Source of the DNA: Diphasiastrum complanatum
Taxonomy: Eukaryota > Streptophyta > Lycopodiopsida > Lycopodiales > Lycopodiaceae
Reading direction: 5' to 3'
NCBI GenBank assembly: GCA_029204225.1
Contig: MU831918.1
Location: 1-64,000, forward strand
DNA: 64,000 nucleotides
Shown: one piece after another, positions 37,002 to 62,093 of the stretch
Layout: each line of letters starts with the position of its first letter
Numbering within the stretch: the first letter of the stretch is position 1
Notes under the pieces: generated by a model
The model's database searches: none
Told to the model about the DNA's origin: nothing
Seen by the model: only the letters and a program-made list of their open reading frames with translations
Translations under genes and position numbers: made by a program

Positions 37002-39140
37002 CTATAATCGACTAATCTGAACTTGCTCTCTCCACGATCTTCTGGATAGAAACTTCTTATATTTCTGCAATATTCTACTCCTTAACCAGAAACGAGGATT
37101 CTCAGCTGGTGCAGTGGTAAGATCAATTTGATTAATGGTTGGTACTCTCGTCAATTTCTTTGATTCCGGGACGTTTGTGGCAGGATGACTGCTGTGAGAG
37201 TTTTCTTCTTGATCTCTTTCCAGAGGTAAAATCTCCTCGAACTTTGGACTTTTGTAGTGCCATGCCCAGAACAAGTAGCTGAGCAGATTTAGGAAGTTGA
37301 GCAGTGCTTGGAGCCAGTAGAAATAGCTGAGCTTACTGCGGTTCAAGTTGTTCTGCAGCCAGCCTCCGCTTTTGCCATTGCTGGTAGTTTTGTTCACTAC
37401 TGACACAAGCCCACTGCTGAAGAAGTTCCCCAACGCGATGGAAACAAACGATAAAGACGTGGACATGCTTCGCATACTAGGTGGTGAATGGCTGTACAAA
37501 AATTCCATCAACCCAACGAATGTGAACATGTCTGCAAGCCCAAGGATGAAGTATTGCGGAGCAAGCCAGTAGATTTTGAGAGGGATTCTGGCTTTCGGAT
37601 CATCAAGAAGTGAATGATCTGTAGCGACATCCACTCGCTTCATCTCAACCAAGGCGGCCACTATCATGGAGAGCATGGATAGAGCCAAACCTGTCCCAAT
37701 CCTCTGCAGATGAGTGATTCCCTGCGTTTGTCCAGTGAGGCGGCGTGCTAATGGAATGATTAGAAGGTCGTAGACAGGAAGAAAACCTATTTGAACGATT
37801 AGAGGGAAGGATAAGAACGATGCCGGGGGGATTTCGAAATGACTCCCTATCCTGCGATCCATGGTGTTTCCCTGTCCCACGTAAAATGTCTGAATCTGTG
37901 AAAGAGCGCTATTCATGATGATCGTGCTGGCAAATATAGGCAAAATATGGACCATCGCTTTGACTTCTTCTACCTCTGTAACGGTACAGAGGCGCCAAGG
38001 CGATGCTGGCTGATTTCCATCTAATCGACTTGTGCTGGCATCTGTTATAATAGCCGCGTTGTCAAAAAACCTGCCATGAAGAATCGTATCTGGTTATCCA
38101 ATCGCAAAAACTGACTGAAAGATTTGATGAGAAATAAATTAATGCTGCTAATTTCTGCTCGCATATCTTGAGGAGCCATGAAATCACAGAATTTCTGAAA
38201 ATGCACGCATAATTAGACAGATATGAAGGCTGGTTTCTTACCTGAGATTGTGTGTGTGATGCATTTTGTATGCTCGATATCTAGACTGGTGAGCATCTTG
38301 AATTTCGTATAACTCTCTCTCAGAAGCCAAATTTTGAACTTTTCTATTTCTAAACGCTGAGACCACAACCTGAGCTATTCGTGTAAGTGGACTTCCAACG
38401 CGCTCTTTAGACTTGTAATGGCATGATCCTAAAGAGATCGTTACCAAACCTGCAAGCATGGCCACGAACGCTATACCAAAGCCCAAAGAGTGAGAAACGT
38501 TATCCTGCACGTACACCAACACAGTGACGCCGATGAGCGCGCCCATGCAGAAACTGAACCAAAACCAGTTGAAAAATGTTGAAATCATTATCTCATCTTC
38601 AGGATCGCGCTCGTTAAATTGGTCTGCACCCAGCGCTGGCAGATTGGGCTTGAGTATCCCAGTTCCAGTAGCGACCAGGTAAAGACCTAAGAAGAAGACG
38701 GCCTTCTTCAACCCTTGTTCGTGGCAAGAATGAGCAACTAGGGAGGTACATGGCAATGGCTTTAAAGAAGACAAGGCTGTAGAGAGGGTCATAACGAAAT
38801 AGCCCTGGATAGAAAAGACAAATTGTTTGATTTAGAAGTCAATTAGAATCTGGAGAAGACTGATGATAATGAAAGCTTTATACGATATCATTTCTGGGGG
38901 TGTAGTAGATAATCACAAGCATACCAGTAGCTGAATGGTCACCGCAATTAAAAGCGTGGAAAACCTGCTCAGCCATGTGTCGGAAATAAATCCTCCTACA
39001 AGGGAGATCAGGTATGCTGCTCCCATGAAGTTGGTCGCTCCATTTGCTGAGGACGTGATTGGGAAGTGCATTACTTTGAAGAGATATTCGAACAAGTTCA
39101 CAGCAACAGATAGGTACGCCATTGTTTCCATGGCCTCCAT
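37002..39140 (-). CDS. NPF (NRT1/PTR) family transporter, three exons, first exon not found
   Basis: A proton-coupled nitrate, peptide or hormone transporter of the plasma membrane or tonoplast, MFS fold. Exons on the reverse strand: 39140 (or further upstream) to 38925, 38804-38242 and 38070-37002. All internal junctions are GT-AG and keep the frame (phases 0 and 2), giving about 615 codons. Visible landmarks: EAMETMAYLSVAVNLFEYL (the ExxE[RK] region of TM1), TNFMGAAYLISLVGGFISDTW (TM2), FFLGLYLVATGTGILKPNLP (TM4), FNWFWFSFCMGALIGV, WRLCTVTEVEEVKAMVHILP (entry to TM7), PQYFILGLADMFTFVGLMEF and YFYWLQALLNFLNLLSYLFW. The N-terminal 30-50 residues should come from an earlier exon that I could not find. 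An in-frame TGA lies just upstream (about 39165), after a possible acceptor zone. The Arg of ExxER is Thr here. Substrate cannot be predicted. Confidence 0.9.
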
Positions 39141-43367: not shown

Positions 43368-43877
43368 CTAAACATTATGCCCAGCCATGGATTCCAAGGC
43401 ATTTTGTGCACTTGAAGATACATCAGTAAAACTATTAAGTGCATACATATTGTTGCCAAAGACAACTTGCCTTGCTTGATCCATATGATTGAGCCTAGAT
43501 GGCTCCATCTTGATACTCATGGTTCTTCTTGGAGTCCTCAGGTCTTGAACTTGCTCCTCCACTTGACTTGACTCCAAACCATCAATGAATTGAATAAGGT
43601 GTTGATCCAAAGGTGCTTCTTCAAGTTTACAAATCTTCCACTCTTGAAAGATCACATTTCCACCATTGACAAATTCTTTGGTTGAAAACAAGTAGATTCT
43701 ACAATCTCTACTTGAAGAGCAAAACACTACCATTATTCCTATAATTGAAATAGGATAATCTTTGGTCCTTACATTGGAATGATCATGCACAAAGCATGTG
43801 GACACAAAGATTTCCAAAGCAAATGATGTTTCATCTTTTATGACTCTATTCAAACTATTACAAAAATAGTTATCCAA
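43368..43877 (-). pseudogene. Copia integrase C-terminal remnant
   Basis: The reverse strand reads DHSNVRTKDYPISIIGIMVV, then a CRIYLFSTKEFVNGGNVIF block, the counterpart of the Copia VGYSxxSKGYRLYxPxTKKFxxSRDVxF motif. The linker DLRTPRRT and KARQVVFGNN-type sequence that precede RT follow. RT is absent and the frame continues into unrelated sequence. It overlaps the end of the preceding frame out of phase, at the scar of the integrase-core deletion. Confidence 0.6.
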
Positions 43878-45396
43878 TGAAATTGCTTTATCAACAACGT
43901 CTTGTCATACAAAGTAATAAACACCATGAATCTTAAAGGTAAGAAACAAGTCACCTCATGTCTACTACTACTTTCCAAAAAGTATTCAAAGATAGTAGAC
44001 TCTCCAATGCTCACCACCCTTGCAAGATGCACACTTGAATGGACAATTTGCATGCAATTCGATGACTCGGCCTTTGTCATTGAGGACTCCCTTGGAACTC
44101 TCATGCTTTGAGGCTGATCCTCAAGATCTTCCTCCTTTTGATGCTCCTCCTCAATGCAAGCAAGATCACACTTTGCCAAGATCTCCTCTTGAGTGATCTC
44201 CTCCTTTGCCAAGCTCATTCTCTCAAAAGCAACACTAGCTTCCAACTTAAACAATCTTCCATGCTTAAATCCCTTTGCAATGCAAACATCATTCTTCAAG
44301 ATGAAACAAACACCATGATTAAAGTGGACATCCAAACCACTTTCTAAGAGTAGACCAACACTAAGCATATTCTTGGTGATTGATGGTACATAAAGGACAT
44401 TTTCTAGATCCATGCATTTTGAGGATTCTAGACACAAAGAGATGGTGCCAACACCATCTATCCTACACTCTTCATCATTTGCAGTAAAGACAAACTTTTT
44501 AGCATCATAGAAATAGTGGAAGGTTAAGAAAAAGTCCTTTTCACGAGACATGTGGGAGCTAGCCCCACTGTCGATCCACCAATTGTCTCTTGAATTGCTA
44601 TTGCTTGTTGGTGAGGATGTAGATGCCATCAAGAATACATCTACTTCATCCTCCTCCTCCTCCTTTGCAAGGTTTCCTTGTTTGTCCTCCTCTACTTGTG
44701 CTCTTAGCCTCTTGTAGCATTCAGATGCATAATGCCCCTTCTTTCCACAAAATAAGCATTTTTGCTTTGACTTGTCCTTTGAGCTTGATGCGTCATCCTC
44801 TTCTTTAGCCTCCTTTGGATGCTTCTTCTTTCCATTGGTCTTCTTTTTGCCCTTGAATGAGAAATTGGCTTTCTCATCACCATCCTGCAAAGACAAGGAA
44901 CTCATCCTAGACTTTGCATGGAGCATCCTACACTCTTCAGCCACTAATACACTATGAAGTCTTTCTATAGTTGGCAAAGTGTCTTGGATGGCAAAACTTT
45001 GGACCAAATTTGCAAAGTCATCTCCTAGACCATTAAGGACAATTTGTACAAGCTCTCCATCATGAATCTTCTCTCCAATGGAAGCCAACTCCCTATTTAC
45101 AGACTTGATTCTGAGTACATAATCTTGTGCACTCTCCTCACTTCTATGTTTTGCAAAATTTGATTTCTAAGCATAAGAACTCTAGAAGTGTTGCTAGACT
45201 CATAGGTTGATAATAAAGACTCCTTCTTGTATCTAGCTAACTCATGTGCACCTAGAGGTTCATCTTCATCTTCAATCAAGAACTCATAAAGGTCTTGGAG
45301 CACCAAGAGTGACTCCATCCTAACCTTCCAAATAGCATAATTTGTAGAATTCAACCTCTCACTAGCTTCTAGAAGGTATGCTCCAGCGGATCCCAT
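43850..45396 (-). pseudogene. Copia gag-protease-pre-integrase (deleted and frame-shifted)
   Basis: The gag ATG is at 45396 (MGSAGAYLLEASERLNSTNY). Compared with the relative at 60.8 kb, about 40 residues are missing after ELARYKK, and a frameshift follows NQILQ. From about 45088 one long frame contains IHDGELVQIVLNGLGDDF, the knuckle CLFCGKKGHYASEC, the protease WWIDSGASSHM (catalytic DSG), CRIDGVGTISLCLES and VLYVPSITKNMLSVG. It then passes into pre-integrase and a deletion scar. It would make part of a gag-protease protein at most. Confidence 0.8.
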
Positions 45397-48716: not shown

Positions 48717-48766
<50 letters not shown>

Positions 48767-49258: not shown

Positions 49259-51491
49259 AATGGTATTAGAGCAACATCCTGACAAGTCAAAGCCCATAAG
49301 ATTCTCAGAACTATAGTCTGATAAGTCAGAGCACATAAGGTTCTAAGACCAGATTGATAACTACCAAAGAGTCTTATTCAAGCAAAACATTGTAAATTAC
49401 AATGGCATCTATCAACAACATTCAATCAAAGATATACACCATTCTTCAGTTAGATGGGTTGAACTACCTGGAAAGTGAAGATATCGCTTATCCTATGATA
49501 GAGGAGAAGCACTATGGCCCGAGGTGGATGGAACCGAAGAGATGCCATCTAATGCCTTAAAAAGAGTTTCATGAATGGAAGGAGAAAAATGATAAAGCAG
49601 TAGCTGTCATATCCTCCTCCATCGAAGACAACATTACTCTCGATCTCTCATCAATATCAAATGCACGAGAATTTTGGGATGTGTTGAAGTCAAGATTCGA
49701 GACCAAATCACGCAGCCAAATCATGCAGTTGGGAGATCAACTTATGTACCTATGCTGGAATGGTAAAGATCTTACTACATTTATCAGAAACATAAAGAAC
49801 CTATTTCTCTCTTTGCACGATGTTGGCACAGAGCACACAGTCTCACAAGAGAAGCAGCTGATGTACCTATTACGCGCGCTACCAAGATCATTTCAAACAA
49901 CGTGCCCTTTGGTGGCAAAGGATCCTACAATGTCTCTCGAAAAAGCAATAAGCGAGATCAAGGAAGAAGTGTAAGCAAGAGAGCACTACGATGACAGACA
50001 AGAATCTAATCAAGCTTTATACAGTGGTAAAAATCAATGCAAGAAGAAGCCTCATCCTAAGAGAGAGTCATCTCGAAGGTTAGATCACAATTAGCAAAAA
50101 GAAAAAGACAAAGAGAGAAGATCGAATGTGCACTATGGTTGAACACCAACGACATAGACCAAAGACTTGATGATGTCTTTTACGTGCCCACTTTATAGAA
50201 GGATCTTCTATCTGTAGCAAGAATAGCAGATGCAGGCATGCATGTGACATTCATAGACAAAGCATGCAATGGGATTGATGCCAACACCAGTGCCCTCATC
50301 ACACAAGACAAATGCAAAGACAATCTGTATCATATGAAAGTACGCCTATCGACAATGCAAGCTCATCAAATTCATGATTCGATGGATCTTCTATGGCATA
50401 GGAGACTATGTTACATGTGCCCAATGGCACTACACAAAGCAAGCCAGCATGGCGCATTCACAGGAGTGAGCATCAAAGGTGCAAGTCTCACACCCTATGA
50501 TGCATGCAACAAAGGCAAGACGTCACATACACCCTTCACCAGAGATTCCTTCAGAGCGACAGAGATCCTGGAATTGATACACTCCGACATTTGTGGACCT
50601 TTTGATGTGCTCTATGTGGGAGGCTCACGCTACTACATCACCTTCATCGATGATTTCAATAAGTTTGTTGTCGTCTACTTTATCCACAATAAGTCCGAAG
50701 CTCTTGATAAGTTCACAGAGTATGTAAATTGGGCTAAGAAGTGGAGAAGAAGAAAAGTCAAGCAGATTCAAACTAACAAAGGCAGAGAATACATCTCCAA
50801 CCGCTTTGTTGATTTATGCAGTAGTCGTGGTATCCTTCATAAGAAGACTACACACCACATCATAATGGTGTAGCAGAAAGAAAGAGATAGGGCTCTCATG
50901 GAAGCAGCAAGGTGCATGAGGCCTACTCAAAGATATCAAGATCACTATGGGCTAAAGTTGTAGCTACAACCACATTCCTGCAAAATAGGACAGGAAAATT
51001 AGGCAGGGCCTCACACAACTCCACATGAAGTGTGATGGGGTAACGAGCCTAATCTAGCTCATGTACGTATTTGTGGGTGTGTAGCATATACATACATTCC
51101 TGACAAGATCCGCAAAAATTTGGATGAAAAGGTCGAGCATGGATACCTTGTAGGATATGACACACACTCATCATACTATAGGATCTACCTGTCAGAGACT
51201 AATCAAATCAAAATTGTCAAAGATGTCGTTTTTGATGAAGCAAGAACAATGGCTAATGAAGATTTAGTTAGTTATGAGATTCTTTGTAAGCAGTACTACA
51301 ACTTGCTGACATCGATAGAGGGAGCGGGCCCTGAGAATCAAGATGAAGATGTTCAAATTACAGATGAACAGAGTGATAGTTCAGATGATGAACATCCCGA
51401 TATGCAGCTTGTACCTAGAACACATGTGATGCACGATAATGCCATTATCAGCAGAAGGGACAAACATTACAGCAAAATATTGTCTTTTTGA
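49259..51491 (+). pseudogene. Copia element with gag and integrase, RT missing
   Basis: PBS-like ATGGTATTAGAGC at 49259. Gag starts at 49401 (MASINNIQSKIYTILQLDGL; in-frame TAA near 49558), with FWDVLKSRFETKSRSQIMQL, LMYLLRALPRSFQTTC and MSLEKAISEIKEEV. The knuckle and protease region (49975-50240) is unreadable. Pre-integrase LLWHRRLCYMCPMALHKA and integrase DICGPFDVLYVGGSRYYITF, TNKGREYISNRF lie at 50238-50873. The integrase C-terminal region GYLVGYDTHSSYYRIYLSET is at 51120-51491. No RT or RNase H follows and no 3' LTR was found. The lineage differs from the others here. Confidence 0.8.
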
Positions 51492-51588
51492 GCACAATTG
51501 GAAGATATACGTCTAATTACATCTTCTAAACAAAGGATTCTTTGCATTGAAATGTGTTACCATATTCTTTCTAATATTTTACAATAAC

Positions 51589-51912
51589 CTAGCAAACCTT
51601 CTTTCCATGACAGACAAAATATATCAATTGAGTAGCAGAAGAAAATTTGGGATGTTGCATGGAATATGGATCTTTAGGATATAATGTTCCGTCTACCCAG
51701 AAGTCTAGATTTGCTTTCCCGTCAGCCCTATAGCGCAAACAAATTGATAAGTAAGATGCTTTGACACCTCTTCTAATCAAAGGAGCATATTCTTCAGGAA
51801 GATCTATATGGAGATGAAATTTTTTCATTATAAGAAGAAAAAATAGATAACGATCTAATATCAGTTCAACAAAAAAATAAATAAATGAAACATACTCATC
51901 GCCTTTATACAT
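51589..51912 (-). other. Unrecognised open reading frame, possible terminal exon
   Basis: The reverse frame holds DLPEEYAPLIRRGVKASYLS and YRADGKANLDFWVDGTLYPK and ends in a stop after HGKKVC. A splice-acceptor-like ctccatatag precedes the DLPEEY part, so coding may begin at about 51805. I do not recognise the family. It lies just upstream of the transposase-like block at 52.4 kb and on the opposite strand, as does the convergent gene of the second unit, so it might belong to the same mobile element. Confidence 0.3.
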
Positions 51913-52418: not shown

Positions 52419-54729
52419 GACTTTTGTACTGAGGTTCTCCAAAAAGAAAATGAAAATCTATGGAATAATAGTGAATTATTGCAAAAAATCATAGTGAGTA
52501 CAAGAAAAGAGATTGATCAAATGAAAATTGACTTGAATAATGGTCGTTTTGCATACTCACAACTATTGAAAGATGTTGACTTGATAGGTAAAAATGTAAA
52601 AACAAAAAAATGAAAGCGAGTGATCAACACAAATATTCATAATTTGTCATCAACAGGAGGCTATCGGAAAAGGAAAATGTATGCATTCAAGTAAGTTTTT
52701 GACTTTTGGCCTTTGCAATCTTTTCTTTACTTTAAGAGTTCAGACCTTATATTGTTTTAGCATGATTGTCAATTGTAACATTAATCATCTATTATTTTTT
52801 ATCTTATTTTTTTATAGATCTGCATTGGTTGGAAATCAAAATGCGAAAGACAATGCTACTATAGGCAAGTTTTTGGGGTCTGTGTTGACAACAAAATCAA
52901 CTGAGTCATTGATGACTAATAATCGAAACTGTCATGTTAAGATGAAAATTGTTGATGCTTTAATGATTGAAGTACAAAAAATACTTGACAATACTATAAT
53001 TCTAGGAGCACGTGATTTTGCTAGAATAAGTAGAGATGCTTATGGCACCATATTTAAGATAATCAAACAAGCTTTGACGCTGGTTAGCATTAAGAAATTT
53101 CCTATTCCACGACCATTTCAAATAAAATGGGAGCGTGATTCAATGAATAGAGGAATTCAAAAGATTATAGGTGTTTCATTTCATATCGAGGAAGTATATC
53201 AATCAAAGGACAAAAAATCCACGTCTTACAATCAGTCAAATAACTTGTTTGTCGATATGAATACGTTATTAAGATTTATTATACATTTCTATGATATTTC
53301 CATGGAAAAGGTAGATAGTAAGATAGTCTTGGTACTGAAGCTGGATGAATCAGAACTTATTAAAGGACAAAAAATGGAGAGAGTGAGTATAACACTCATG
53401 AATGGAGCACTTCAAAAGACTAAATATCAAGGAGATTTTAACTTCAGTGTTCAATCCGAGAATGACATCCAGTGGTTGGCAGCCTTTGACGTATGATATT
53501 TTAAAATCTAATGAGTTTTGATATTGTATGTTACTTGGGTTTTGATATTGTTATCAATTGACTGGTTTTTTTTCTATCCATTTTTTAGGTTTTAAGGGAA
53601 GATCATGACATTCTATCATGGGTGTTTAGCAAAACAACATATTCCAGAATCATCAAAGAGCATATGGATGGGAAACTTTTTAATGTACTTGGAATAAGAG
53701 ACTTCAAGGTAGAGTGGCATTTGGCTGGTGATTTAAATTCTTTAAAATGTATGTTCAATGTTTCCCATGGACCAACCTCCAAAAATCCATCTTTATATTG
53801 TTCGGAAATCATCAAATGACATTACCAAGAATAATAACAAGAGACAAAGAGAATCCAAATTGGAAACCTGTTCTGCCAATTCCTCTACAAAACGTACATA
53901 TTTGCACTCTCCATGCTGAGGTTAGAATAATCAAAAAGCTTGTGTATTGTCAAATATTATATGCTTGGAACACAAAGCCAGAATTAGAAGATGTTCTGTC
54001 TAAAGCAGGTCTCCATAAAGGACATGTTAAAATACAAAAGGATTTTAAGCTTTCGGAAAAAAAAGAAAATATAACTTGCAAGCCAAGCATTGGCGGTGTA
54101 AAGGCACGAAGATTTTTATCTAACCATTCAAGAAAGCCATCTAAGACGTGTTACTCAGTTTGGAGAGACATCATAGCTGCCACTCAAGATTTTGTTCAGG
54201 ATGGAGCAACAAGGGTAATGAAAGTTGAAGTATGAAAAAAATTAGATGATATGGTAAAATATTACGGAAGGAAATATTTTCAAACAATGATTTGCGACTG
54301 CTCCAGAAATGTTGTGTTGAGTTCGTAGATGTAGTTGAAGTGGCTTGGGGAGATGATCATATCACACATTACATGGTAAGCATTTAAAAACAGATATCAA
54401 GTTACCATTTTATTTTGTTTTTTGAAGTTTAGCTATTGATAGAAATTGTTGATATTTTGCAGCACATATTACGACACCATTCCATATCCTTAGTAGAAAA
54501 TCATGGAAGTTTGAGTATATGGTCTTCACAAGGGATGAAAAAATCTCAATGGCAAGCTAGAGCAGCATTTTATAAAAACACACAACATGGTGGCCTCAAT
54601 GGTAGACACAGATATATTCTTCAGTTATTTCAATGGTTCTATCGATTAGCACAAATACGACATCAAACAAAACCTACAAATTATATCAAGTTCAGAAAGG
54701 CATGTAAATTTATACATCAAGGGAGGTAG
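52419..54729 (+). pseudogene. RAG1/Transib-like DDE transposase relic, copy 1
   Basis: Exons inferred from GT-AG edges and from alignment with copy 2: about 52419-52690 (helical, ending GGYRKRKMYAFK), 52818-53490, 53589-54375 and 54463-54729. Candidate catalytic sites: D in VLVLKLDESELIKGQK, D in EWHLAGDLNSLKCMF, then NPSLYC (only the second Cys of the CxxC seen in copy 2), ICTLHAEVRIIKKL, and GSLSIWSSQGMKKSQW, where the expected acidic residue is Gln. Spacing and the last block resemble RAG1/Transib cores (first Asp, second Asp, WxSEG). This is recalled similarity, not a search result. Two frameshifts near 53810 and an in-frame TGA in the first exon break it. It has the fuller N-terminal region (about 150 residues missing from copy 2). 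Confidence 0.5.
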
Positions 54730-54769
54730 ATTGACAGACACAACATTGTACTATATATTTGTAATTTAT

Positions 54770-54945
54770 TTTGGAAAAAAAAATACATCTCCAACTGATT
54801 GAATATATCTATATCTCCTTGCCATCTTATTTCTCTTTTTCTAGTACCAGTTGCATTTTGTTGTCGTGGAAAGATTTTCTTCTTGCAAATGGATCCAAAA
54901 GATATGCATTTTCTTTTTCTTGACATAATTCTATGTAAGTTGCAT
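54770..54945 (-). pseudogene. Last-exon remnant of the convergent gene, unit 1
   Basis: The reverse strand reads ENAYLLDPFARRKSFHDNKM and LVLEKEK. The same place behind copy 2 reads EIHRFLDPYDRKKFLHDH and IVLRDNAKK. Similarity of protein and not just DNA at equivalent positions behind both transposase copies indicates a conserved convergent coding end. Confidence 0.45.
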
Positions 54946-55080
54946 ACAAAGCAAAATGAGCAGATCAGAGAATAGTATTCTCGGGTGCATAACCTAAAAT
55001 CTAGTTAAAAGAAGAAACTCACATACTAGATAAGAAATTAAAAAGAAACAAGTGAAAAAGAATTCTGAAGGACATTGATG

Positions 55081-56677
55081 AGCTTTCGCTAAATGGAGGC
55101 CAACGGAGAAAAAGGATTCAAGCATTCAAGTAAGGATTTGATTTGAATCATTTTATTTTCATTTTGTGAAGTAGCATGACATTTATTATGTAGCCTATTT
55201 GGGTTTGTTGATTTTCATAATCATTTGCAGATCAGCATTGATGAGCAAACTTATTTTGGTGGTCAAGCTAGATGAATCGGAAGTTATAAAAGGACAAAAG
55301 TTGGAAAGAGTAAGTATTACTCTCATGAATGGAGCACTAAACAATGCAACAAACTCAAGGGATCTCAACTTCAGTGTGCAATCAGAAAACAACATATGGT
55401 GGCTAGCATGTTTTCAGGTAAAAAAAGGTTGTTATTCATGTGCAATTTCTTTTGGTAATTGTTTTGAATATATAAAAACTTGTGATTTCATATGTTGGAT
55501 AGGTTATCAAAGAGGATCACGATGTTCTTTCTTGGATTTTTAGCAGAACAAGTTATCCAGATATCATAAAGGATCATATGAATGGCAAAGTACTTAGTGT
55601 TCTTGATAGAAGTGAATTTTTGTGGAATGGCATTTAGCTGCAGACTTAAAATCATTGAAATGTATGTTCAATGTATCTCATGGGGCAAATTCAAAACATC
55701 CATGTCTATATTGTATGAAATCATCAAATGACATTTCAAGGATCACAAGAGTTTCAAGAGATATTGAAGATCCCAACTGGAAACCAGTACTACCAATTTC
55801 TTTACAGAATGTTAATATTTGCACACTTCATGGAGAGGTGAGGATCATAGAGAAATTAATATATATTGTTCATATTTTGTTTGCATGGAATACTAGGCCA
55901 GAGTCAGCATCAAAACAAGCAATAGCTCGATTAGAGGAAGTGTTGTCAAAAGCGGGCCTTCATAAAGGACATATTAAAATACAAAAAGATGAAAAGCTTT
56001 CGGGAAAAACATGAAACGTACCCAGTAAACCTAGCATAGGAGGAGTCAAAGCTCGTCGATTTTTATCAAATCATTCTAAAGAGTCGTCTAAGATCCAATA
56101 CTCGGTTTGGAAAGATATTATTTCTGCAACATAAGACTTTGAAGATAAAAGAACAACAAGGGCAAAGAAGGTTGAAGTTTGGAAAAAGCTCGATAATATG
56201 GTTGAAGTGCTTAGAAAAGACACAATTTCATATGCAGATGCACTCCTATTGGAGAAAACAGCAATAGAGTTTGTAGATGCAGTTCGGGTGGCTTGGGGCT
56301 CAGATCACATAACCCACTACATGGTAGGATACATTTGAACAATGTCTTACAGTTTTATAATTTTAGTATAACTTGCTTGATAGATTCTAAAATGAGGCAT
56401 ATTTTTCTAACAAATGCATAAATATTTGATATTGCAGCACATACTAAGGCGTCATGCATCATTTTTTGCAAAAAAGTATGGCAATTTGAGTATATGGTCC
56501 TCAGAAGGAATGGAGAAATCACATTGGCAGGCAAGAGCAACATTTCATCAAAATACACAACATGGTGGAACATCCTCAAAAAATAGTTACATCATTCAAC
56601 TATTCCACTGGTTTTATAGACGGGCTCAAGAAGATCAACTAAATATCAAAGATTCAAAAAAGCATGTAAATTTATAA
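55081..56677 (+). pseudogene. RAG1/Transib-like DDE transposase relic, copy 2
   Basis: Tandem to copy 1 at a spacing of about 2.44 kb with the same introns. Exons: (about 55060)-55129 ending GGQRRKRIQAFK, 55231-55417, 55503-56323 and 56438-56677. It keeps D in LVVKLDESEVIKGQK, D in WHLAADLKSLKCMF, CxxC in HPCLYCMKSS, ICTLHGEVRIIEKL, VAWGSDHITHYM and the acidic block GNLSIWSSEGMEKSHW followed by NTQHGG. About 150 residues present in copy 1 between SAL and SK are deleted. One frameshift near 55618 and in-frame TGA (56012) and TAA (56132) codons inactivate it. The TAA lies where copy 1 has CAA. The RAG1/Transib assignment is motif-level inference. Confidence 0.5.
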
Positions 56678-56739
56678 GCCAAAATTGATGGCATTCAATA
56701 AAGATCAAACGCGTGTGATAAAAAATTCTCAAATTTCAC

Positions 56740-58286
56740 ATACATTAAATGGAAAAGAGTACAATCATTTTTTTGCATTGTCTCTAAGGACAATTTTTGC
56801 TGTGTGGTCATGAAGGAACTTTTTCCTATCATACGGATCCAAAAATCGGTGGATCTCCTTTTGTTCAGATCTATATATCCTGATAGAATTGCTAGGGCAG
56901 ATGATCTCATAGGAACATTTTCTAGCACATAATTGAACACTTTAAGAGCAACATCTCTTTTGACAAAAATAATTTTATATGTATTGTTTTGGATATTTAT
57001 GCCCTTGGGCAAAAAAAGATAGGGCCTTAATGGCCATGATTAAGGTTCTCGCATTTACAAAAAACCTATCATGAAGAATACAAATTTTGTTATTTACAAA
57101 AGATTTCAAATATTGCCAATGAGACATCCTTCTGTCTCACGCCTTGTCTCTCTCTCAATCCTCCATGCTTGCTAGCAAAGGCATCAACTTCAACGATTTC
57201 CTACAACACATAATCAAGTGTTAGTCAAACTAGCAAATCAATCATCAGTTATACGTTAAATAGTAAATGATTTTTTGTGAAATAATTTACTTACCGAATC
57301 CTCCTCGTCAGCCTGGATCACACCAGTAGCTTCTAAATTGTGACCAACAATAATGGTCGATTGTTGGTCAGCTGGAATAGGAGATGGCGGATACTTTTTC
57401 TAAAAAGCCAAAAACTCCTCGTCACTTGGCATATTAGCCTCATATGCCATGCTCTCAGATAGCATCCTTTGAAGGGCATCTGTGCCACTTGCTCATTCTT
57501 CTTGGTCCTCATAGTTGATGCCATCTATGAGGTCGTCATCATCAAAGTCAATAAAATCACTAAATTCAGAAATCATTCTTGACATAAGAGATAATATCTC
57601 ATCTTCTCTGAGATCTATTACGTCTCTGATATCACTAATGGAAAAGAATGGAATATTGTCCATATGGTACATATGGATGTCCATCAGGGTTCTGCTCTGG
57701 TCAATCTTGCTTACGGTAGATAAGGGAGAGATAGACAAAGAACAGGCCTTGGCAGGATCATACTGCTGTGCTTGTCTGACCTCCTCTACATCTTCTAAAA
57801 CCTCATCATTAGTAGAAACCTCCGAAGCTACAAAAGTGGTAGGGGCAGGCAAACCAATCATGCAAGACCTAGAAGATTGTGCCTCATCAGAGATAAGAGC
57901 AGATATGAAAAACACAAAGGCCATACCTCCTGAACGAAGTGACATACACGATTGTGTTCCTCACAGAATATGACACATTTAAACAGATCGATAAGTTTGG
58001 TAAACTTACGATCATGCCTTTGCTTGGCACTAGGCTGAGCATGAATCAAATCTGTGAAATGCACAAATCTTAGGCCATCCATCAGAAGGGTATCCTATTG
58101 CAAGCAGTCATAAAAATCCTTGTACGTTTTGGAAAAAACTTCCCTGTGCTCAGTGACAAATCTCTCTATGTCAAACTGAAAATCGAAATAGGACAAAAAA
58201 TGACAATGTCTGTCGCTAACCCCAACATCAACAAGGAAAGAACTAAGTGCCCATTCATAGATTGAACTAGTAGACGAGGAAGCCAT
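56740..58286 (-). pseudogene. Convergent second gene of the transposase-like unit
   Basis: The ATG at 58286 starts MASSSTSSIYEWALSSFLVD. The frame runs through FDFQFDIERFVTEHREVFSK, an in-frame TAG (58095), then FVHFTDLIHAQPSAKQRHDR and CEEHNRVCHFVQE to a GT at 57926. A frame change, then an acidic region (MISEFSDFIDFDDDDLIDG), stops at 57493 and near 57400, and a GTAAGT donor near 57293. Further blocks CILHDRFFVNARTLIMAIKA, FVKRDVALKVFNYVLENVPM and RFLDPYDRKKFLHDH reach 56740. I do not recognise the protein. Position, orientation and the repeat of its end behind copy 1 suggest an accessory gene of the same mobile element. Confidence 0.4.
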
Positions 58287-58496: not shown

Positions 58497-58629
58497 ATTC
58501 CAAAAATGATGCTCTTATATATACTCTAATTCAAAGGATTTGAACCGTACACATGTTTTGGAAACCTGCGATCAAAATAGTCGCACATGTGGAAAACGAT
58601 GGCCAAATCATTGCATGACACATGTATGG

Positions 58630-59330
58630 ACCAAATTATGACACATGTCCTTTTGAAGAGCAAGCACACTTTGAACTCATCCTTGATAAATCCTTGAGGT
58701 TGTTCCATATAGATCTCCTCCTCAAGACAACCATTTAGAAAAGCATTGGATATATCTAATTGGAACACCTTCCACTTAAAGAAACAAGCAAGAGAAATAA
58801 GAATTCTTATTGTCACCATCTTTGCAACGGGTGCAAAGGTCTCCTCATAATCAAGGCCATGGATTTGAGCAAATCCTTTGGCACATACTCTTGCTTTATA
58901 CATGTTGATGGTGCCATCATGATTGTACTTGATCCGAAATACCCACTTGCAACCAATCACATGCTTGTTGGATGGAGGATTCACAAGCTCCCAAGTATTG
59001 TTGGTGATCAATGCATCATACTCTTGCTTCATGGCATCATACCACTCCTTGGTATTGAGTGCCTCTTGTACATTCTTTGGCTCTTCATGAGAGACATAAA
59101 AAACATAATTGATGGAATCAAGATCCACTTGTTTGCGTTTGTCAACATATGAGAGCCTCTTAAGCTCGGATCTATCTCTCATGGATCTTCTTGGTGAGAA
59201 AATCCGAGGAGAGTATTCTTCAATTTTCGACCCCATCACATCATATTTGTCTTCAAAATCAATAATAGGTGATGCATCCATAGACTTCTTGATCTCGGCC
59301 TCTTTAAAAGATGAATGTTGATCTTCATGA
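58630..59330 (-). pseudogene. Copia reverse transcriptase fragment
   Basis: The reverse frame is open and contains the pre-RT linker PRIFSPRRSMRDRSELKRLS, NVQEALNTKEWYDAMKQEYD, CKWVFRIKYNHDGTINMYKA, FAPVAKMVTIRILISLACFF, FQLDISNAFLNGCLEEEIYM and EQPQGFIKDEFK, then leaves the family near 58650 before the YVDD catalytic block. The right edge is the start of a Copia LTR at 59331, so a forward Copia inserted in or against it. Confidence 0.8.
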
Positions 59331-60031
59331 TGTGAAGAATTGCCAAAAATTGGCAAATCTAGCTTGATCAAAAACCATGTAGAATAGTGTAAATTGTGTA
59401 CACAAGTGGGTCCCACACATGTGAGGCCATGATGCCACATGGGAAACCCATCCTAATGTAGGTTAGGTCAAGTCAAGAGAGTTGGTCATGTCTATTTGGT
59501 GGTCATCCCTACTTTATAGGACCTACACCTAAGTTTAAGGTGAAAATTTGACCAACTAGCTACCTACCAAGCATAACTCTAGGAAATAGACTAGGGTTTC
59601 ATTTTAGGTCAAGGAGAGTGAGTTAACTTCCTTATTACATGCTAGAAATCCACCTAACTTCAAGAAGGAAGTCGAATTTGCTATGTATTCCCTCTCTCCA
59701 CAGTGAGAAGATAAAATTTTTTTGGAGCTCATTGGCAATCTCAAGCTAGTTCACTATGTCCATTGAGTTTTTGTGATCCAAATGAAACCAAATCAATTTC
59801 TACTTGTTTCTCAGGTTTAAGGCCGTACTACAGCCTGTAGTACACACGTGTGGTCTCGGATTTCAATTTTTATCAATGCTTTTGATTGTTAATGCTTGTT
59901 GTTTGTCAAATCGCCAATCTAGATCAACTTTTTTGTGTCTAGTTTTTTGATAGATTGTTAAGCAAGCATCCAATCACTCTTGTGGATCTTTTGTAGATCC
60001 ATTTATGGTCCTAAAGTACAGTACTTTCACA
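59331..60031 (+). mobile_element. 5' LTR of the 59.3-kb Copia
   Basis: 701 bp, the same length and termini as 46301-47001, with more differences from it than the two LTRs of that element show between themselves. It is followed directly by the PBS. Confidence 0.9.
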
Positions 60032-60836
60032 TGGTATCAGATCCAAGTACAAGAGCATAAGCCATTGATCTAATGCAAATCCATTTTTAGCAAGTTTTGG
60101 TGCTAAAAACTAGTATTGAGAGGGCAAGCTAGAATCTTGATTTTGGTGAGGAGATTTGATCCCAAACTTGGTAGGGGTCCAAATCCGTACTATACACATG
60201 TGTGGGCACCTCTGAACCTGCATTTAATGCATGGTATTCATTTGATCCAAAAAAATTCAATTTGTGAGCTATTGGTGTAATTTTTGGTGGAGATCCTAGG
60301 ATAATCTACCAAGATCATTTGCCATTGGTTAGATTTGAATTTGTTTCATGGAATATAATTAATCTAGGCTGAGATAAAGTCCTATTAAGGTTAAAAACAG
60401 GTCTTGAAAGTACACCAAGAAGGAAGAAAGAGATTAAGTCATTTTTTTGTCCAAAAATAGCCAAATTTGGCAAGATTTGATTGTAAGTAGATTTCACATC
60501 ATCTTATCTTCATTCCAACTTTGTGAGGGAGTGCTAGAACTGAGATTATAAGTCCATTTTTTGGATTAGAAAATTAATTTGAGTGAAAAAATACAAGAGA
60601 GAGACCTTAGTGAGTTTCTAGAGACAATCAAATCCATTTCTTGGCAAGATTTGTTTGAAAGTAGTTTTCACTTCATCTTATGTTCATTCCAGCTTTGTCA
60701 GGGAGTGATAGAATTGTGATTATAAGTCCATTTGTTGGATTAGAAATCAAATTTGAGTGAAACACTACAAGTGTGAGACCTTTGTGAGTTTCAAGTCAAT
60801 CAAATTTATTTCTTGTTTGTAGAAGTCACTAGTAAG

Positions 60837-62093
60837 ATGGCATCTGCTGGAGCATACCTTCTAGAAGCTAGTGAGAGGTTGAATTCTACAAATTATGCTA
60901 TTTGGAAGGTTAGAATGGAGTCACTCTTAGTGCTCCAAGACCTTTATGAGTTCTTGATTGAAGATGAAGATGAACCTCTAGGTGCACAAGAGTTAGCTAG
61001 ATACAAGAAGAGATCTAGGCTTGCACTTCATTGTGTGAAGATGAATGTGAGCAATGATTTGTTGAGAGAAGTATCAGCTTGTACTAATGCTAAAGAGGCT
61101 TGGGAGTCTTTAAAATCAATCTATGAGTCTAGCAACACTTCTAGAGTTCTTATGCTTAGAAATCAAATTTTGCAAAGCATGAGGAGAAGTGAGGAGAGTG
61201 CACAGGATTATGTACTCAGAATCAAGTCTCTAAATAGGGAATTGGCTTCCATTGGAGAGAAGATTCATGATGGAGAGCTTGTACAAATTGTCCTTAATGG
61301 TCTAGGAGATGACTTTGCAAATTTGGTCCAAAGTTTTGCCATCCAAGACGCTTTGCCAACTATAGAAAAACTTCACAGTGTATTAGTGGCTGAAGAGTGT
61401 AGGATGCTCCATGCAAAATGTAGGATGAGTTCCTTGTCTTTGCAGGATGGTGATGAGAAAACCAATTTCTCATTCAAGGGCAAAAAGAAGACCAATGGAA
61501 AGAAGAAGCATTTAAAGGAGGCCAAAGAAGAGGATGATGCATCAAGCTCAAAGGACAAGTCAAAGCAAAAATGCTTCTTTTGTGGAAAGAAGGGGCATTA
61601 TGCATCTAAATGCTACAAGAGGCTAAGAGCACAAGTGGAGGAGGACAAACAAGGAAACCTTGCAAAGGAGGAGGAGGAGGATGAAGTAGATGTATTCTTG
61701 ATGGCATCTACATCCTCACCAACAAGCAATAGCAATTCAAGAGACAATTGGTGGATTGACAGTGGGGCTAGCTCCCACATATCTTGTGAAAAGGAATTTT
61801 TCTCAACCTTACACTCATTCAATGATGCTAAAAAGTTTGTCTTTACTGCAAATGATGAAGAGTGTAGGATAGATGGTGTTGGCACCATCTCTTTGTGTCT
61901 AGAATCCTCAAAATGCATGGATCTAGAAAATGTCCTTACTTGGAAATGGACACATCAAAAGTATAGCCCAAATTGCAGTGTAGCAAACTGTATATCAAAA
62001 ATCCAAAAACAATGTATATATATGTTTTTTTCTGGCAACCCATGCATGAACATGGTTGTCGCTAATGGGACGCATGTCCCATCAACTGTCTAA
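60837..62093 (+). CDS. Copia gag-protease with a chimeric C terminus
   Basis: The first ATG is at 60837 (MASAGAYLLEASERLNSTNY); the frame is open upstream only to a TTG at 60813. The capsid region has MNVSNDLLREVSACTNAKEA, NTSRVLMLRNQILQSMRRSE and VQIVLNGLGDDFANLVQSFA. Lys-rich linker, the knuckle CFFCGKKGHYASKC (all ligands) and the protease WWIDSGASSHISCEKEF with the catalytic DSG follow. After CMDLENVL the frame crosses a junction (about 61936) and adds roughly 50 residues (TWKWTHQKYSPNCSVANCIS...) read from flanking host DNA. About 418 codons with no lesion. Gag assembles the particle; protease would be truncated. Confidence 0.8.
   Translation: MASAGAYLLEASERLNSTNYAIWKVRMESLLVLQDLYEFLIEDEDEPLGAQELARYKKRSRLALHCVKMNVSNDLLREVSACTNAKEAWESLKSIYESSNTSRVLMLRNQILQSMRRSEESAQDYVLRIKSLNRELASIGEKIHDGELVQIVLNGLGDDFANLVQSFAIQDALPTIEKLHSVLVAEECRMLHAKCRMSSLSLQDGDEKTNFSFKGKKKTNGKKKHLKEAKEEDDASSSKDKSKQKCFFCGKKGHYASKCYKRLRAQVEEDKQGNLAKEEEEDEVDVFLMASTSSPTSNSNSRDNWWIDSGASSHISCEKEFFSTLHSFNDAKKFVFTANDEECRIDGVGTISLCLESSKCMDLENVLTWKWTHQKYSPNCSVANCISKIQKQCIYMFFSGNPCMNMVVANGTHVPSTV

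Follow-up and report, generated by a model that had tools for sequence, protein, structure and literature searches.

What kind of gene is represented by the two side-by-side, intron-containing broken genes that lie on the plus strand at 52,430-56,677 of a clubmoss contig? The locus belongs to Diphasiastrum complanatum, a lycophyte of the class Lycopodiopsida, and the window analysed here is the whole stretch of 64,000 nucleotides at positions 1 to 64,000 of contig MU831918.1 (assembly GCA_029204225.1). The initial annotation had proposed a tandem pair of relics of transposases resembling Transib and RAG1, the latter being responsible for antibody gene rearrangement in vertebrates. We conclude that the two genes, hereafter copy 1 and copy 2, are very probably broken transposases with a RAG1/Transib core, derived from two old subfamilies of one family. 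The evidence comprises the predicted fold of a relative with an open frame, active-site and zinc-binding residues collinear with those of RAG1, shared introns, the relatives and the damage to both copies.

Exon structure and motif content of the two copies

Copy 1 begins with a coiled-coil-like part carrying the basic motif GGYRKRK (exon 1, 52430..52690); the 5' limit of this exon is uncertain, one stop lies inside it, and it seems to be prolonged upstream as a coiled coil. Exon 2 (52818..53490) encodes the pre-RNase H part with the first Asp in KLDESE, exon 3 (53589..54375) the second Asp, SxxC in place of CxxC, CTLH and GGVKARRFL, and exon 4 (54463..54729) H-x4-H and W-S-S-Q-G-M-K, with Lys at the position of the catalytic Glu. 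Copy 2 follows in the same orientation after a gap of about 340 bases and consists of an exon 1 remnant with GGQRRKRIQAF (55068..55129), an exon 2 with an internal deletion relative to copy 1 (55231..55417; first Asp codon at 55271-55273), an exon 3 (55503..56323) with the second Asp at 55643-55645, the Cys pair at 55703 and 55712 and the CTLH His at 55829, and an exon 4 (56438..56677) with the zinc-binding His residues at 56438 and 56453 and the catalytic Glu at 56513-56515.

All introns are of the GT..AG type, at 52691-52817, 53491-53588 and 54376-54462 in copy 1 and at 55130-55230, 55418-55502 and 56324-56437 in copy 2, the three being placed alike in both copies. The initial description of two spliced, diverged copies is thus borne out by matching introns as well as by six DNA blocks of 73-80% identity with a start-to-start spacing of 1.91-1.98 kb. 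The motifs that it had listed (LDESE, HLA(G/A)DL, a Cys pair, ICTLH and WSS(E/Q)GM) were likewise located as claimed; in full, each copy carries, in this order, KLDESE, WHLA(G/A)DL, the Cys pair (PCLYC in copy 2; PSLYC, with Ser and Cys, in copy 1), CTLH, GGVKARRFL, THYM-HIL-x-x-H and WSS(Q/E)GM. A weak likeness in a low-scoring local alignment was also seen between 54700-55060 and 56660-57000, just downstream of each copy.

A family of relatives without an assigned name

Queried with copy 1 in its joined reading, a set of 5.8 billion proteins returned 34 relatives at E values from 7e-96 to 3e-26, so that neither the motif set nor the reading is due to chance. When an alignment of 14 relatives served as the query, 77 proteins were found, the weakest at E 4e-51 (limit 0.1), among the 7983 candidates with the most shared words, the only ones scored. 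Both searches combined yielded 95 family proteins. Two of these, P0005 (898 residues) and P0007 (900 residues), have frames that are open throughout and contain all motifs. The sole relative with an organism name among the 34 and 77 listed is a chimeric Adiantum nelumboides protein without the catalytic core; the family is accordingly spread over many sequences without an assigned name. The family search found zero matches in prokaryote genome contigs, and matches of 13 and 16 residues in viral contigs, obtained with a single query, were judged to be chance, the alignment query having given zero.

The family tree, for which 83 of 97 rows were kept, contains several deep clades and groups both copies with P0075 and P0069 (support 100/99). 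The long branch of the Adiantum row, P0034, is meaningless, the core being absent; P0077 is also long. P0080, P0062, P0063, P0074, P0084, P0088 and P0077 are long-branched or basal-looking members, which may offer a route to other RAG1/Transib or CMC lineages.

The relatives also carry traces of the introns. T-H-Y-M is followed by V, as in a read-through of the intron 3 donor, in 61 of 64 relatives and directly by H in the remaining three, and 12 of 70 relatives start 48-53 residues ahead of the second Asp, near the start of exon 3 in the window. Judged from these sequences, the introns therefore look old, and some members of the family look to be without intron 3.

Predicted fold and collinearity with RAG1

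Two AlphaFold models of P0005 were compared with known structures using Foldseek and VIA-align, and RAG1, RAG1L and HzTransib ranked first by a wide margin. The predicted structure of P0005 is that of a RAG1-type core, with a pre-RNase H part and an RNase H fold bearing a zinc insertion. Control comparisons fell far below. The VIA-align lists hold no CACTA or Chapaev structure, and this carries no weight either way.

In P0005 numbering, the Asp-Asp-Glu (D-D-E) triad is D411, D508 and E785. The first Asp is conserved in 57 of 59 covered relatives, the zinc-binding Cys residues (C-x2-C) in 86 and 85 of 88, and the His residues (H-x4-H) in 10 of 12 and 9 of 11. The likeness to the D-D-E and zinc residues that had been noted from the motifs stands, and their order fits RAG1; the assignment of the last acid to W-S-S-E does not, the position being Q in 8 of 10 covered relatives and the conserved acid being the E of G-M-E (9/9). 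The G of the W-x3-G-x-E motif is present in 7 of 10. Copy 2 has all three acids and all four zinc ligands; copy 1 has lost the Glu and is short of one Cys.

Profile comparison placed these residues in register with RAG1. With hhalign, 43 relatives aligned collinearly with mouse RAG1 389-1010 in a single 310-column block (21% identity), pairing D508 with D708, C528/C531 with C727/C730, H591 with H795, GGAKAR with NGNFAR, H761/H766 with H937/H942 and E785 with E962 (RAG1 numbering, in keeping with the E962Q entries, where structure chains show Q instead of this Glu). The score of 37.5 exceeds those of 60 shuffles (at most 28.6) and of 36 real proteins (at most 24.4), the latter being partly non-independent, as they comprise 16 readings from the window and 20 proteins of one transporter family. 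Restricted to the core, the comparison scored 35.5, whereas none of 200 shuffles exceeded 25.4, and was confined to a 33-column HxxxxH-W-E stretch. Together, fold prediction and collinear residues support the family that had been proposed.

When PDB and Pfam were searched by sequence alone, using the copies as well as the family, only weak matches or coiled-coil noise came back, and no RAG1 or Transib chain was matched by single-sequence or hidden Markov model (HMM) search; at this level, the similarity to RAG1 is detectable by profile only. The RAG1 nonamer-binding domain has a GGRPR-type motif together with helices ahead of the dimerisation part. A GG-basic motif reads GGQRRKRIQAF in copy 2 and GGYRKRK in copy 1; a few structure alignments extend to RAG1 401-415, and the hhalign alignment stops short of the nonamer-binding region.

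Decay and divergence of the copies

Both copies are relics, as first described. The frame of copy 1 is shifted past the Cys pair and again near 54270 and meets a stop at 54233; in addition, a zinc-binding Cys is replaced by Ser and the catalytic Glu by Lys. In copy 2, about 160 residues of exon 2 are missing by comparison with copy 1, the frame shifts near 55615, and stops interrupt it at 56012 and 56132, yet all catalytic and zinc-binding residues are kept. At columns conserved in the family, damage affects 7 of 36 positions in copy 1 and 5 of 35 in copy 2, the median being zero in 67 relatives (P0034 and P0077 left out of the count).

The two proteins are 65% identical over 399 aligned positions. 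Across 332 codons, agreement is 80%, 88% and 51% at first, second and third positions and protein identity is 72%, a value raised by the choice of blocks, which were hand-picked for clean alignment. Shared fourfold sites (322 codons) agree in 26 of 78 cases, compared with about 29% expected at random third positions. This near-random level, together with the constraint on the protein, argues that the copies diverged very long ago and that, on the codon evidence, both were under selection for most of that time. A recent tandem duplication was rejected on the same fourfold count.

Copy 1 is 79% identical to P0075 over 227 positions and matches it even where intron 3 is read through (score 65, compared with at most 23 in 500 shuffles); copy 2 does not (score -8, compared with at most 8). 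Copy 1 is thus a defunct representative of a lineage in which exon 3 has stayed open elsewhere, in P0075, and copy 2 is a disabled representative of a separate lineage. We infer two insertions from two old subfamilies rather than a recent tandem duplication.

Proposed activity and alternative explanations

RAG1 and Transib nick DNA, form a hairpin on the flanking DNA and carry out strand transfer. By analogy, the intact enzyme should cut transposon ends, leave hairpins on the flanking DNA and rejoin the ends by strand transfer, since the family has the active site, the zinc insertion and conserved residues at the positions of RAG1 H795 and W956. Its core would consist of a dimerisation and pre-RNase H part, an RNase H fold with the D-D-E triad and a two-Cys/two-His zinc insertion, perhaps with a nonamer-like basic region. 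Such an enzyme would pair the transposon ends, nick at the transposon end, generate the hairpin on the flank and insert the element by strand transfer, as in RAG1 and Transib, and both copies would have come to the locus by transposition and decayed afterwards. This activity and history form the inferred part of the interpretation.

Several results weigh against a RAG1/Transib-type transposase. The hhalign probability was only 20-24%, which we attribute to the single-sequence template, and a smaller comparison with 23 relatives followed the same path at a probability of 1.4%, E 0.037 and a score of 24.7, like that of shuffles. The first Asp lies just upstream of the 310-column block and is thus not itself aligned. 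Mean predicted local distance difference test (pLDDT) values of the P0005 models are 69 and 77, and the stretch with the last Glu is poorly modelled, at low pLDDT, in both; the second model has higher overall confidence and a worse end, probably owing to intron read-through tails of relatives in its alignment. In addition, a search around the copies for CAC-ended terminal inverted repeats with a 5-bp duplication turned up none beyond chance.

CAC is reported as the first bases of transposon ends (excerpts of PMC7204232). In the window, three CAC..GTG pairs with exact 5-bp duplications occur against 2.03 expected, two of which span both copies (0.19 expected, first-order Markov) and share the left end 49510. 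The pair 49510/59705, with CACTATGG/CACTGTGG ends and AGAAG duplications, had no equal in 50 simple shuffles; it was nevertheless dropped because its left end lies inside a Copia gag reading and is shared with a third site, and in view of the expectation of 0.19. A looser pair, 50300/56806 (11/14, 4/5; 0.04 expected), was dropped as it starts inside a Copia reading. The ends are perhaps gone, since both copies are truncated.

A first alternative, which we regard as unlikely but worth keeping in view, is that the family belongs to another EnSpm/Mirage/Chapaev/Transib lineage, for example a Chapaev- or ESTA-like one, and is no closer to RAG1/Transib. We know of no solved structure for the Chapaev- and ESTA-like lineages, which are hence invisible to a PDB search. 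Identity of the family to RAG1 is only about 14-21%, and the zinc motifs C(2)C and H(3-4)H are common to those lineages (excerpts of PMC12730594). The family nevertheless shows additional RAG1-like details, namely I-T-x-Y-x-H-x4-H, W-x3-G-x-E, G-x2-A-R and a core of RAG1 size. Transposase_21 (PF02992, EnSpm/CACTA), moreover, is not among the best 25 of 64 Pfam families obtained at E <0.05 with 34 members, which speaks against a CACTA affiliation, and neither copy matches it up to E 5. Under this alternative the enzyme would bear another name and still be of the same kind, so that it overlaps with a RAG1/Transib assignment.

That the pair goes back to a host gene domesticated from RAG1, which was duplicated in tandem in ancient times, long kept in clubmosses and lost only recently here, appears improbable. 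Such a history would fit the shared orientation, the short gap and the identical exon structure, the saturated synonymous sites under strong protein constraint, and the intron match to P0075, which could be an orthologue in a related species. Against it, the only named plant protein among the 34 and 77 listed relatives is the chimeric Adiantum one, none being an intact named plant orthologue, the family has many deep clades, and several Copia readings surround the locus. Transposon-like genes are often omitted from annotation.

That the proteins have another fold and the motifs are coincidental is scarcely credible: the lack of a credible sequence-level PDB or Pfam match and the weak first profile comparison would agree with it, but the two models, both structure programs and the larger profile comparisons concur, with controls far below. 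Animal or microbial contamination of the plant assembly, which the near absence of organism names among the relatives might suggest, is practically negligible, because the window holds a D. complanatum transporter gene, together with Copia elements, and both genes have spliceosomal-type introns.

Surroundings of the locus

The transporter, an NRT1/PTR-type host gene of two exons, lies at 37002..38831 on the minus strand (PTR2, E 1.7e-48 and 7.1e-39), and its joined exons match D. complanatum O6H91_Y003300 at 100% identity over 98% of the query. Copia readings with Pfam support occur on the minus strand at 58526-59452 (reverse transcriptase) and 43850-45166 (gag and pol parts), and Copia-type readings were recognised by eye on the plus strand at 49400-51491 and 60777-62093. 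A (CA)n simple repeat occupies 48718-48764.

An N-terminal domain exon of the transposase family was detected at 51569..51891 on the minus strand, where a tblastn comparison of the window with the 95 family proteins gave 15 alignments, the best of them with residues 2-91 of P0014 (E 3e-14). It lies about 540 bases upstream of copy 1 beside the broken end of a Copia reading, and represents an inverted piece or a third, divergent copy. The Copia reading at 49400-51491 ends abruptly right beside it.

Downstream of copy 2, a gene-like reading at 57040-57960 on the minus strand has an acidic stretch, a splice-like donor and acceptor and no credible Pfam match; it may serve this element, or some other transposon, as an accessory gene. 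No Pfam match to a kelch (RAG2-like) gene was obtained in three minus-strand readings downstream, the copies being incomplete.

Comparison with known systems

Possibly, and we put this forward only tentatively, seedless vascular plants, probably together with other eukaryotes, are home to a deep clade of RAG1-type transposons that is still active and branches outside known Transib/RAG1, with its own N-terminal domain and a spliced transposase. If so, DNA cutting of the RAG type would have long been resident in plant genomes as well, and the clade would provide an outgroup for tracing the origin of V(D)J recombination and for asking which parts of RAG1 are ancestral. A diverse intron-bearing clade, found in a clubmoss and a fern and missed by ordinary searches, would extend the known range of the class of enzymes that underlies antibody diversity, and the open-frame members P0005 and P0007 could be put to laboratory tests.

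Compared with the vertebrate RAG1 core (mouse RAG1, PDB 4wwx, 6cim, 6xny), the family shares the core fold and the D-D-E order. The first Cys lies 19 residues past the second Asp in RAG1 and 20 in copy 2, in which H-x4-H and the residues matching W956 and E962 stand at identical spacing, the His-to-Glu distance included, and an LH motif stands at H795. The family differs in identity (14-16% in structure alignments), in another N-terminal domain with a coiled coil, in its three introns and in the damage seen here; no RING finger was present among the Pfam matches listed and no RAG2-like partner was recognised. Identity to the HzTransib transposase (PDB 6pqn, 6pqx) is 12-14%, the family core is longer, and Transib-type ends were not found around the copies. 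RAGL elements carry a RAG2-like gene, and none was recognised beside the copies, in which they differ from RAGL/ProtoRAG (BbRAG1L, PDB 6b40).

The plants named in the figure legend of one study of Transib-like proteins are angiosperms. That study (Tao et al. 2022, PMC9435367) reports 39 RAG1/Transib-type proteins from plant assemblies, among which there may be a lycophyte or fern, and a RAGL transposon that is active in a pelagophyte alga; it shows RAG1-type transposases as known mainly from animals and also reported from an alga, from fungi and bacteria, and from plants. Transib proteins share a mean identity of 34% among themselves in the same study, and the present family, in contrast, finds no RAG1/Transib chain by single-sequence or HMM search. 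Among the papers listed in literature searches, whose coverage lacks most subscription journals, none is devoted, judged by its title and the opening of its abstract, to lycophyte or fern elements of the RAG1 or Transib type.

The ESTA, EnSpm and Chapaev transposases of the wide assemblage named CMCT, to which the zinc motifs are common, resemble the family, by description, in their C(2)C, H(3-4)H insertion, and ESTA has been likened to RAG1 by HHpred (excerpts of PMC12730594); Chapaev has been counted in the Transib superfamily (Kapitonov and Koonin 2015, excerpts of PMC4411706). Given the plant and algal reports, RAG1-type proteins in photosynthetic organisms are not new as such, and the present family stands apart in its depth and its hosts, and in its introns, coiled coil and N-terminal domain.
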